Positions 8,130-51,978 of a stretch of 52,754 nucleotides of DNA are shown here, one piece after another. The notes below the pieces were generated by a model that saw nothing but the letters and a program-made list of their open reading frames with translations, made no database searches and was not told the DNA's origin. The DNA is from Patescibacteria group bacterium (lineage in GTDB: Bacteria > Patescibacteriota > Minisyncoccia > Minisyncoccales > RBG-13-36-15). A program made the position numbers and the translations under genes. The stretch lies in NCBI GenBank assembly GCA_018609195.1, contig JAHCSE010000003.1, positions 1 to 52,754 of the forward strand, given 5' to 3'. Each line of letters opens with the position of its first letter. The first letter of the stretch is position 1.

Positions 8130-8232
8130 TTATTTTATTAACCTTTGACTCGATTGTTTGTTAATCATATCTCAATAAAGAAAATAATAAAATAGTAAGA
8201 CGACAATTTTTAATTATCTTATTTTACTTTAG

Positions 8233-8435
8233 TAAGCAGAAAGTCGCTCATCCTTTTCCAGCCTTGGGCTGGCGCTCCCGAGCACATAACGGTTTATGTG
8301 CTCGGTCGCTTCGGACTCGCTCCCCAGAAACCTCTCGGTTTCTGGCGTTCGCTCCACTCACTGTTTTCCTATACGGGAAAACACCCAGTTTTCCCGACCC
8401 TTTTCTGCTTTTTTGTTAATATTAACAAAAAAGGT
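8233..8435. repeat. Hairpin-rich structured element, copy B
   Basis: Successive hairpins CCAGCC/GGCTGG, CCGAGCACATAA/TTATGTGCTCGG, CCAGAAACC/GGTTTCTGG, GTTTTCC/GGGAAAAC/GTTTTCCC, and 26-nt palindrome CTTTTTTGTTAATATTAACAAAAAAG; related to 50268-50447. Confidence 0.8.
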
Positions 8436-10422: not shown

Positions 10423-10487
10423 CCCCGAACTAGAGCAAAGCTCAGTTCGGGACTAGTCCCGCACCGAACTTCGTTCCGGTGCGGGGC
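10423..10487. repeat. Dual-hairpin GGACTAGTCCC element, copy 1
   Basis: CCCGAACTAGAGCAAAGCTCAGTTCGGG - ACTAGT - CCCGCACCGAACTTCGTTCCGGTGCGGG; related to 45102-45169. Confidence 0.85.
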
Positions 10488-45101: not shown

Positions 45102-45169
45102 CCCCAGCACCAGAACAAAGCTCGGTGCTGGACTAGTCCCGCACCGAAACGGAGTTTCTGGTGCGGGGC
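45102..45169. repeat. Dual-hairpin GGACTAGTCCC element, copy 2
   Basis: CCAGCACC...GGTGCTGG - ACTAGT - CCCGCACC...GGTGCGGG; homologous layout to 10423-10487. Confidence 0.85.
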
Positions 45170-49819: not shown

Positions 49820-49924
49820 ATTATTGTAGTCTCCAAATCGTAATACTGTTTAGAGGATGGTTTGCCATAACAAAAGCTCAGTTATTATATTATATTTTAA
49901 CCAAATTGGCAATATCTTTATAAA

Positions 49925-50222
49925 ATAGTTGTTCGCTCCGCTCACGAACTATTTTTTAGAAACCCACGGTTTCTAACGCTCTCCTCCGAAGAGCTGTTTT
50001 CCTACACGGGAGGAAACGCCAATGCGTTTCCCCCGACCCCCACTTAAGAGGACTTCCGTCCTCTTACGTCACTCGTTATCACTCGTTCCTATCTCCTCGA
50101 CGGGGGAAACGCCTTTTCACCCCGTATAGGAAAATAGGAGTGAGGAGCCGTAAGGCGACGAATGACGTAAGAAACCGAGGGTTTCTTAAGCTGAGGGTCG
50201 GGGTGAAAAGATACCTCCCGAC
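49925..50222. repeat. Hairpin-rich structured element, inverted pair D1/D2
   Basis: TTAGAAACC-CAC-GGTTTCTAA, TTTTCCTACACGGGAGGAAAC...GCGTTTCC, AAGAGGAC-TTCC-GTCCTCTT; reverse-orientation half contains AAGAAACCCTCGGTTTCTT...TTTTCCTATACGGGGTGAAAAGG. Confidence 0.75.
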
Positions 50223-50267: not shown

Positions 50268-50447
50268 AAAAAGACCTTGTTAAAGGTCGCTCATCCTCTT
50301 CCAGCCTTCGGCTGGCGCTCACCTTGTTCGCTTCGGATTCACTCCTTAAAACCCCTCGGTTTTAATATTTCCGCCACGGGAAAACACCCAGTTTTCCCGC
50401 CCCTTTTCTGCTCTTTTTGCTAATTTAAAATTAGCAAAAAGGTCTTT
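50268..50447. repeat. Hairpin-rich structured element, copy C, bounded by AAAGACCTT/AAGGTCTTT
   Basis: GGTCGCTCATCCTCTTCCAGCC-TTC-GGCTGG..., TTAAAACC-CCTC-GGTTTTAA, CGGGAAAACACCCAGTTTTCCCG, CTTTTTGCTAAT-TTAAA-ATTAGCAAAAAG; homologous to 8233-8435. Confidence 0.8.
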
Positions 50448-51210: not shown

Positions 51211-51978
51211 CTATTTATAACAATTAGGTGAACTCAAAAACTCTTCGAATTTTTCTTTTGTATTGTTTTTTAGGCCGTAGATTTCATGAAATTCTATATG
51301 GCATTTTTTACAAAGGGTAACCCCATTTTCAATCGAGGTTCGTAATTCAGAAAAATCAGCAAAATTATGAAGATGATGCGCAACTATTTTGCCTCCCCTC
51401 TCTCCACATTTTTGACAGGTCCAATTACCCCGCGCAAAAACTGACTCTCTCCATAACTTATATTCTATACTCTTTCTGATTTTTTCATTTTTAGAAATGC
51501 GTCCCCCTTTCCAATTTGGATGGTTTTCTCCTCTCTGGTTAAAGTGCGGCTTCCCTTTCTTTGCCTTGCTTATTTTTCTTCTTATTTCTATTCTTTTGGC
51601 TGGGTTCTTATTTCCTTTATGCTGCCCTTTTTTAAATTCTGTCTTGGGCGAACGACGCCTCCCCTTGAGGAGTTTACTTAATTTCTTTTTTGTTTCTTCT
51701 GGCATTTCTTTTCCTTTATTCCAAGCTTCGCGTCCCTTAAGAGCTTTGCTTAATTTTCTTTTTGTCTCTATAGATATCTCTTTTCCTTTACTCCAGGGAA
51801 TACTCCCTTTTTTAAACCACCCTTTACTTACTTTTTTTCTCCAATCCTCGGAATGTCTTCTTCCCAAATTTATTTTATTTCCCTTTTTAAATTCAGTTTT
51901 AGGAGAATAATGTTTTCCTTTCTTGATTTCGCTCATTTTCCTTTTAGCTTCTTCTGAGTGTTTGGATCCTTTTATCAT
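51211..51978 (-). CDS. NUMOD3-repeat HNH homing endonuclease (free-standing)
   Basis: Repeated HSEEAKRKMSEIKKGK / IETKRKLSKALKGREAWNKGKEM / EETKKKLSKLLKGR; HNH: CQKCGERGGKIVAHHLHNFADF...NGVTLCKKCHIEFHEIYG. Confidence 0.92.
   Translation of the reverse strand: MIKGSKHSEEAKRKMSEIKKGKHYSPKTEFKKGNKINLGRRHSEDWRKKVSKGWFKKGSIPWSKGKEISIETKRKLSKALKGREAWNKGKEMPEETKKKLSKLLKGRRRSPKTEFKKGQHKGNKNPAKRIEIRRKISKAKKGKPHFNQRGENHPNWKGGRISKNEKIRKSIEYKLWRESVFARGNWTCQKCGERGGKIVAHHLHNFADFSELRTSIENGVTLCKKCHIEFHEIYGLKNNTKEKFEEFLSSPNCYK

Follow-up and report, generated by a model that had tools for sequence, protein, structure and literature searches.

A probable mobile palindromic DNA element without open reading frames at the ends of conserved genes in Patescibacteria

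Within a window of 52,754 nucleotides, the whole stretch of DNA that we analyzed (contig JAHCSE010000003.1, assembly GCA_018609195.1), a multi-hairpin intergenic sequence that we call copy B is, on balance, probably a member of a family of palindromic DNA elements that are mobile but non-autonomous and that move between species together with the adjoining gene end. The window belongs to the 854-kb, 98.8% complete genome of a small bacterium of parasitic type. The element is dispersed, occurs order-wide and contains no ORF; its hairpins H1 and H3 are almost strictly Watson–Crick paired, with covariation in H3; and its copies share a layout in which a displaced gene end (X*), the element, a short stretch of inverted target sequence (x) and the intact gene end (X) follow one another.

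Organization of the element

The earlier note had drawn attention to copy B and to a second copy at 50.3 kb (copy C), and all of the motifs and stems that it quoted were confirmed in the sequence. The two match each other with E = 4e-15 in a nucleotide search within the genome, and their folds scored z = −8.0 (copy B) and z = −5.9 (copy C) against dinucleotide shuffles. In copy B, the element proper (8243–8407, + strand) runs from GTCGCTC to CCCGACCCTTTTCTG without an ORF, and both of its borders are conserved among copies. It comprises a left hairpin, CCAGCC-TTG-GGCTGG (8258–8272, + strand), common to copy C and other copies; an optional module, the palindrome CCGAGCACATAA..TTATGTGCTCGG (8278–8305), which is also found alone in 23S rRNA and RNase P RNA; hairpin H1, CCAGAAACC-TCTC-GGTTTCTGG (8324–8345, + strand), whose pairs covary (TT/AA, CC/GG, CT/AG and others); and hairpin H3, CGGGAAAAC...GTTTTCCCG (CGGG...CCCG; 8374–8396, + strand), where covariation is strongest. 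X* (8229–8242) stops exactly at the left border and matches X weakly here, but strongly in many other copies. To the right, x (8408–8420, + strand) pairs with X (8421–8433, + strand), the retained target beside clpP.

Copy C has the same parts: X* at 50270–50285, the element proper at 50286–50410 (+ strand) with H1 at 50346–50365 (TTAAAACC-CCTC-GGTTTTAA) and H3 at 50377–50399 (CGGG...CCCG), x at 50411–50424 (+ strand) and, paired with it, X at 50430–50441 (+ strand). In both copies the match between X and X* is short only. The A/T palindrome at the end of each copy (8408–8433 in B, 50411–50441 in C), which had been taken for a shared part of the element, turned out to be target-derived, consisting of x paired with X, and is different at each insertion. 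The neighboring region 49924–50215 does hold two elements of the same kind, as had been proposed, but they are nested and in opposite orientations: D1 (49924–50047, + strand) has its own left hairpin, with H1 at 49957–49976 and H3 at 50007–50035, and D2 lies beside it on the − strand (50090–50215, ends approximate). The same nested composite was seen again at C13:4.3 kb.

Across copies, the ground plan is a series of 3–6 hairpins, GTCGC...H1-H2-H3...CCCCTYYTSTG, without an ORF. In one subfamily (L067, L072, L073, L080, L084, L087 and others) a terminal CCCCCTTCCGATRTGGG stands in place of CTG. One copy, L017 (C13:43650), is circularly permuted, its borders and gyrB target lying inside the H3 stem, which suggests a circular or tip-opened intermediate. 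The tip-tag TCGCTNCGCTC was considered as a unit and dismissed, its reversed control being frequent too.

Distribution of the family

A nucleotide search of the genome gave 58 matches, including several in which a single module was hit. At least 20 copies are present, 20 cores being listed with H1 (AGAMACC...GGTTTCT) and the anchor TTTTCCTAYACGG followed by H3; within-genome copying is evident from cores that are 99% identical in unrelated flanks. When 147 genomes were searched with the pattern TTTTCCTAYACGGGN{8,38}CCCGACC, 18 of them matched, nearly all belonging to other genera of the same order, and the reversed pattern used as a control matched none. With a slightly extended pattern, 46 loci were obtained from 85,462 genomes, and virtually all of them belong to Patescibacteria/Paceibacterota (Nealsonbacteria, Niyogibacteria, Jorgensenbacteria, Colwellbacteria and further Parcubacteria). 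The two loci outside Patescibacteria (L091 and L093) are probably chance matches, given that they show no x/X footprint and that their count is near the one expected by our own estimate. The longer pattern found nothing in 2.9 million viral contigs. The earlier note had recognized no named family, in agreement with our comparison with Rfam, where none of 4227 families matched at or above the gathering score, and we found no description of the element in the literature covered, which included few subscription journals.

Base pairing in the hairpins

The proposed covariation of the stems was borne out over 67 copies: in the five inner pairs of H3, pairing was kept in 321 of 335 cases, as compared with a mean of 245 and a maximum of 264 when the arms were re-dealt among copies, a control that does not preserve phylogeny and so does not amount to a formal R-scape result. 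When only the 47 distinct sequences were considered, 223 of 235 pairs were kept versus a re-dealt maximum of 186. Positions alternate repeatedly between G-C and A-T. In H2 the hairpin is kept while its sequence is swapped outright, for example CGTTTTCGCC..GGCGAAAGCC, CGCCCCGC..GCGGGGCTG or the GAGCACATAA palindrome.

G-U pairs were almost absent from H1 (1/225 read on the + strand, 1/226 on the − strand) and H3 (1/453 and 10/464, respectively) and intermediate in H2 (28/363), as compared with 125/1340 (9%) in tRNAs of the same set and 121/789 in 23S windows. Thus, of the two properties by which a structured RNA would be recognized, covariation is present and tolerance of G-U pairs is absent in H1 and H3. 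Because G-U pairs are so rare there, the arms are better explained as DNA palindromes or mutually copied arms than as conserved RNA, and the hairpin family as a whole looks like DNA palindromes. The earlier note had read the compensatory changes as selection on structure, an assumption that is unneeded, since template switching can keep the arms of a DNA palindrome matched. It had also left the choice between a structured RNA and a mobile DNA element; near-zero G-U pairing, the replacement of H2, insertion footprints and empty sites favor the latter and speak against the former.

Insertion footprint and empty sites

The typical order at an insertion is orphan end X*, element, x, a short spacer and the intact gene end X. 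Immediately after the end of the element, x comprises 9–27 nt that form an inverted copy of X slightly further downstream. Counting only matches that beat 99% of those to the flanks of other copies (p ≤ 0.01), we found the inverted target in 31 of 70 copies, as compared with an expected number of about 0.7. X* is a direct, diverged copy of X that ends at the left border; for 16 of 68 copies its score was above the 99% control. X itself is the intact gene end, seamlessly continuous with the gene body. The target duplications measure 30–113 nt.

Most copies lie between genes and converge with a gene end. Targets in this genome comprise the 3′ ends of genes for S10, S7, S9, EF-G, GyrB, L33, GroES, PGK and PHP-domain-like, FemAB and SBP_bac_5 proteins, and the 5′ ends of genes for UvrA, LigA and an endonuclease III-like protein; the names uS9, GyrB, L33, UvrA and PHP are presumed from our own recognition of the sequences. 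In other genomes, about 10 copies are inserted in tRNA genes; their border falls within the T-arm, the full tRNA is restored, and a 3′ fragment of the tRNA is left as an orphan on the opposite side. Insertion points recur, in the 5′ end of the EF-G gene (AHIDAG codons) in three genomes and in the 3′ ends of the EF-G and S7 genes both in this genome (G000) and in G002, and the elements at such common points are not one another's nearest relatives. Fixed terminal inverted repeats and a duplication of fixed length, as in a MITE, were not found: the arms are target-derived and site-specific, and the duplications vary over the range given above. Apart from array repeats, no X was found farther away than about 114 nt, and no ORF lies between the two ends. 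A second mini-insertion, CTAGGATTC-CGTCGCTACGC-TCCTAG-AACC, was seen in the orphan tRNA ends (T-arms) of L074, L076 and L098; with the same border tag and a 6-nt inverted copy, it resembles the whole process in miniature.

Relatives mostly have empty sites. At the 3′ end of the EF-G gene, 28 of 30 loci are empty and followed by ordinary intergenic DNA, the element being present in G000 and G002 only. The element is absent from the clpP 3′ region, the site of copy B, in 10 of 10 relatives, and from the 900 nt 3′ of ruvC, the site of copy C, in 7 of 7. Three relatives of the same family have, 3′ of clpP, a terminator-like hairpin followed by TTGACA and a −10-like box. Because family members show these boxes there, copy B appears to have inserted among the promoter sequences of the gene that follows, and its X lies in the likely promoter of that minus-strand gene.

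Hybrid gene ends

In eight coding X/X* pairs, the differences at codon positions 1, 2 and 3 numbered 23, 8 and 89 (89 of 120 at third positions, p about 1e-20), a count that may be biased because neutrally decayed old orphans could escape detection. Since a dead duplicate would change evenly over the three positions, the concentration at third positions indicates that X and X* both evolved as working genes. Judged from these sequences, the host gene would often be a hybrid, one end of which comes from another organism. The codon-position result thus points to a foreign functional end beside a displaced one, with the native end unsettled for EF-G, where relatives show neither X nor X* as the clear native form.

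Some pairs are closer. X and X* are identical over 66 nt in L069 and nearly identical over 113 nt in L068, two loci that represent fresh cases, and about five near-identical pairs are also consistent with plain duplication. The EF-G pair of G002 shows no differences over the first 66 nt or so next to the border and synonymous ones beyond, the pattern expected from gene conversion.

Search for mobilizing enzymes and alternative explanations

No transposase, reverse transcriptase or endonuclease consistently accompanied the element, and reverse transcriptase, RAYT and LAGLIDADG proteins were rejected as partners for this reason, LAGLIDADG genes showing no association at all. A free-standing homing-type endonuclease gene (NUMOD3/HNH) lies between a YebC-like gene and ruvC at 51211–51978 (− strand) of the window, and a second NUMOD3 gene at C20:18.5 kb; as a mobilizer the gene beside ruvC was discarded, these being the only two loci in the genome and unlinked to other copies. 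An RNA-guided nuclease of the TnpB/IscB kind, with x as guide, was rejected because the guide still has the intact target, X with its gene body, next to it and because the copies have no sequence in common after the insertion point. No long, cargo-bearing version of the element was present within 5 kb. The mobilizing activity may be host replication combined with DNA uptake.

A phage-like integration is rather unlikely, in which a tyrosine recombinase would insert a circle of element, x, spacer and X by crossover in the homology of the gene end, restoring the gene and displacing its old end. Such an event would give the classic layout, with gene 3′ ends and tRNA T-loops as targets (phage Ms6 integrates at the latter; PMC1762012) and one restored and one displaced end, and a second PF00589 (tyrosine recombinase) gene occurs in 6 or 7 of 12 element-bearing genomes versus 0 of 8 others. 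Suggestive by count, the association is not so on inspection: the second genes do not form one family, and none adjoins the element. Those of this genome and two family members adjoin what we take to be pyrE/pyrF; because of this position, and because the genes elsewhere are unrelated, we did not count them as evidence. The circle would, moreover, measure only 200–300 bp, and an inverted copy x and insertions at gene 5′ ends are atypical of such systems. Movement of a REP/BIME-type palindrome by a RAYT (Y1 transposase) is distinctly improbable. The element is palindromic, intergenic and repeated, and Y1_Tnp genes are found in 8 of 12 element-bearing versus 2 of 8 other genomes, but they are missing from this genome, the richest in copies, and from G020, G103 and G116; the element flanks none of the RAYT genes in relatives, and a target duplication with an inverted copy is foreign to Y1 enzymes. 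The long, variable and sometimes perfect duplications would also suit SINE-like, target-primed retrotransposition of a hairpin RNA, which we consider highly improbable: this genome and most element-bearing relatives have no reverse transcriptase, the base pairing is DNA-like, and the foreign X of hybrid genes requires recombination.

That copy B is a duplicated conserved structured RNA, such as a small RNA or a 3′ UTR element downstream of housekeeping genes, agrees with the covarying multi-hairpin fold and with its mostly intergenic location convergent with gene ends, yet it is unlikely in view of only 2 G-U pairs among 678 in H1 and H3 together (+ strand), H2 stems that are unrelated from copy to copy, borders that interrupt coding ends and tRNAs, the lack of an Rfam match and the mostly empty orthologous loci. 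We likewise give little credence to the element having no mobility of its own and being a common filler that illegitimate joining and template switching repeatedly capture as foreign DNA is taken up; template switching characteristically leaves inverted copies and microduplications, and competence is plausible in the phylum, but the borders and internal hairpins are conserved in all copies across many families.

Proposed route of insertion and spread

The reading that we favor is a palindromic DNA element that is mobile and travels from species to species along with the gene end next to it. At a first insertion into a site, judging from the footprint, 9–27 nt of the target would be copied in inverted orientation. 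The folded DNA ends of the element would come together where it inserts, and a polymerase would copy back from the tip and resume upstream, giving rise to the target duplication of 30–113 nt. A recipient of another species could then acquire the block of element, x, spacer and X, probably through natural DNA uptake followed by recombination within the conserved gene; the gene would remain functional but be a hybrid, and its former end in the recipient would become the orphan X*. Two observations support spread between species, the codon-position result and competence in the phylum, natural competence having been proven in one class of Patescibacteria (PMC10633639). More speculatively, the element might represent a protein-free "hairpin homing" class in Patescibacteria, whose folded tip marks and promotes replacement of the ends of essential genes between species and which owes its mobility to factors acting in trans or to the replication and uptake machinery of the host, a possibility that we regard as tentative.

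Comparison with known systems

The closest published situation is the fungal mitochondrial hybrid gene, and the closest element type the mitochondrial GC cluster or double-hairpin element. In the mORF hybrid genes of Allomyces (atp6) and Glomus (atp6, atp9, cox2 and nad3), a mobile endonuclease ORF provides a carboxy-terminus of foreign origin in place of the native one, which is displaced (PMC3630166). As here, the insert lies at the end of a conserved gene, brings a foreign functional end and displaces the native end, with mostly synonymous differences (PMC3630166); however, the fungal insert carries a LAGLIDADG or GIY-YIG ORF, whereas the Patescibacteria element consists of 100–200 bp of ORF-less hairpins, occurs in bacteria, also at gene 5′ ends and in tRNAs, and comes with the inverted copy x. 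Double-hairpin elements and GC clusters are likewise short, GC-rich and ORF-less, with shuffled hairpin units, and are exchanged horizontally through flanking homology without a known autonomous partner (PMC4478555). Their mechanism is unsettled (PMC4478555). The GC clusters of yeast mitochondria have a 2-nt AG target repeat (PMC4478555), unlike the 30–113 nt duplications, inverted copy and hybrid genes described here. The Patescibacteria element combines the two traits, hybrid ends and hairpins, with no ORF and with an inverted target copy in addition.

Other bacterial systems share single features. REP/BIME sequences with RAYT are repeated extragenic palindromes with conserved unpaired tags (GTAG, CGTC; PMC3733652), but their units measure 20–40 bp, GTAG REPs are tied to Y1 transposases, of which this genome has none, and they create no hybrid gene ends. 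Integrative elements at tRNA T-loops, such as phage Ms6 (PMC1762012), leave a restored and a displaced end, but are kilobase-sized and have an integrase, in contrast to an element without integrase or cargo. Insertions in CPR rRNA genes come from the same phylum, and their survey also has uncharacterized, short ORF-less insertions, although these rRNA insertions are mainly group I/II introns; neither "palindrom" nor "hairpin" occurs in its text (PMC11270868).

If the favored reading is true, tiny ORF-less palindromes in a phylum of minimal genomes are transferring the ends of genes for translation, chaperones and DNA repair from one species to another, a bacterial counterpart of fungal mitochondrial hybrid genes and of the long-unexplained organellar hairpin elements. 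It would also be a warning that, in these genomes, rRNA helices, predicted tRNAs and the sequences of gene ends may be mosaic. The dozens of insertion footprints make the mechanism of insertion testable.

Other palindromes in the genome

The palindrome GAGCACATAA..TTATGTGCTC replaces or extends several helix tips in the 23S rRNA gene (L023, C15:1346-4145) and two in RNase P RNA (L022, C5:9545-9923), and was also seen in intergenic DNA and inside the hairpin element, with 8 perfect copies in the genome and none in the control. In this it presumably behaves like the Rickettsia palindromic elements. A separate GC-rich palindrome family (CCCGAACT..AGTTCGGG, ACTAGTCCCGCACCGA), apparently unrelated to the element, is shared by two intergenic sites of the window, 10423–10486 and 45103–45147.
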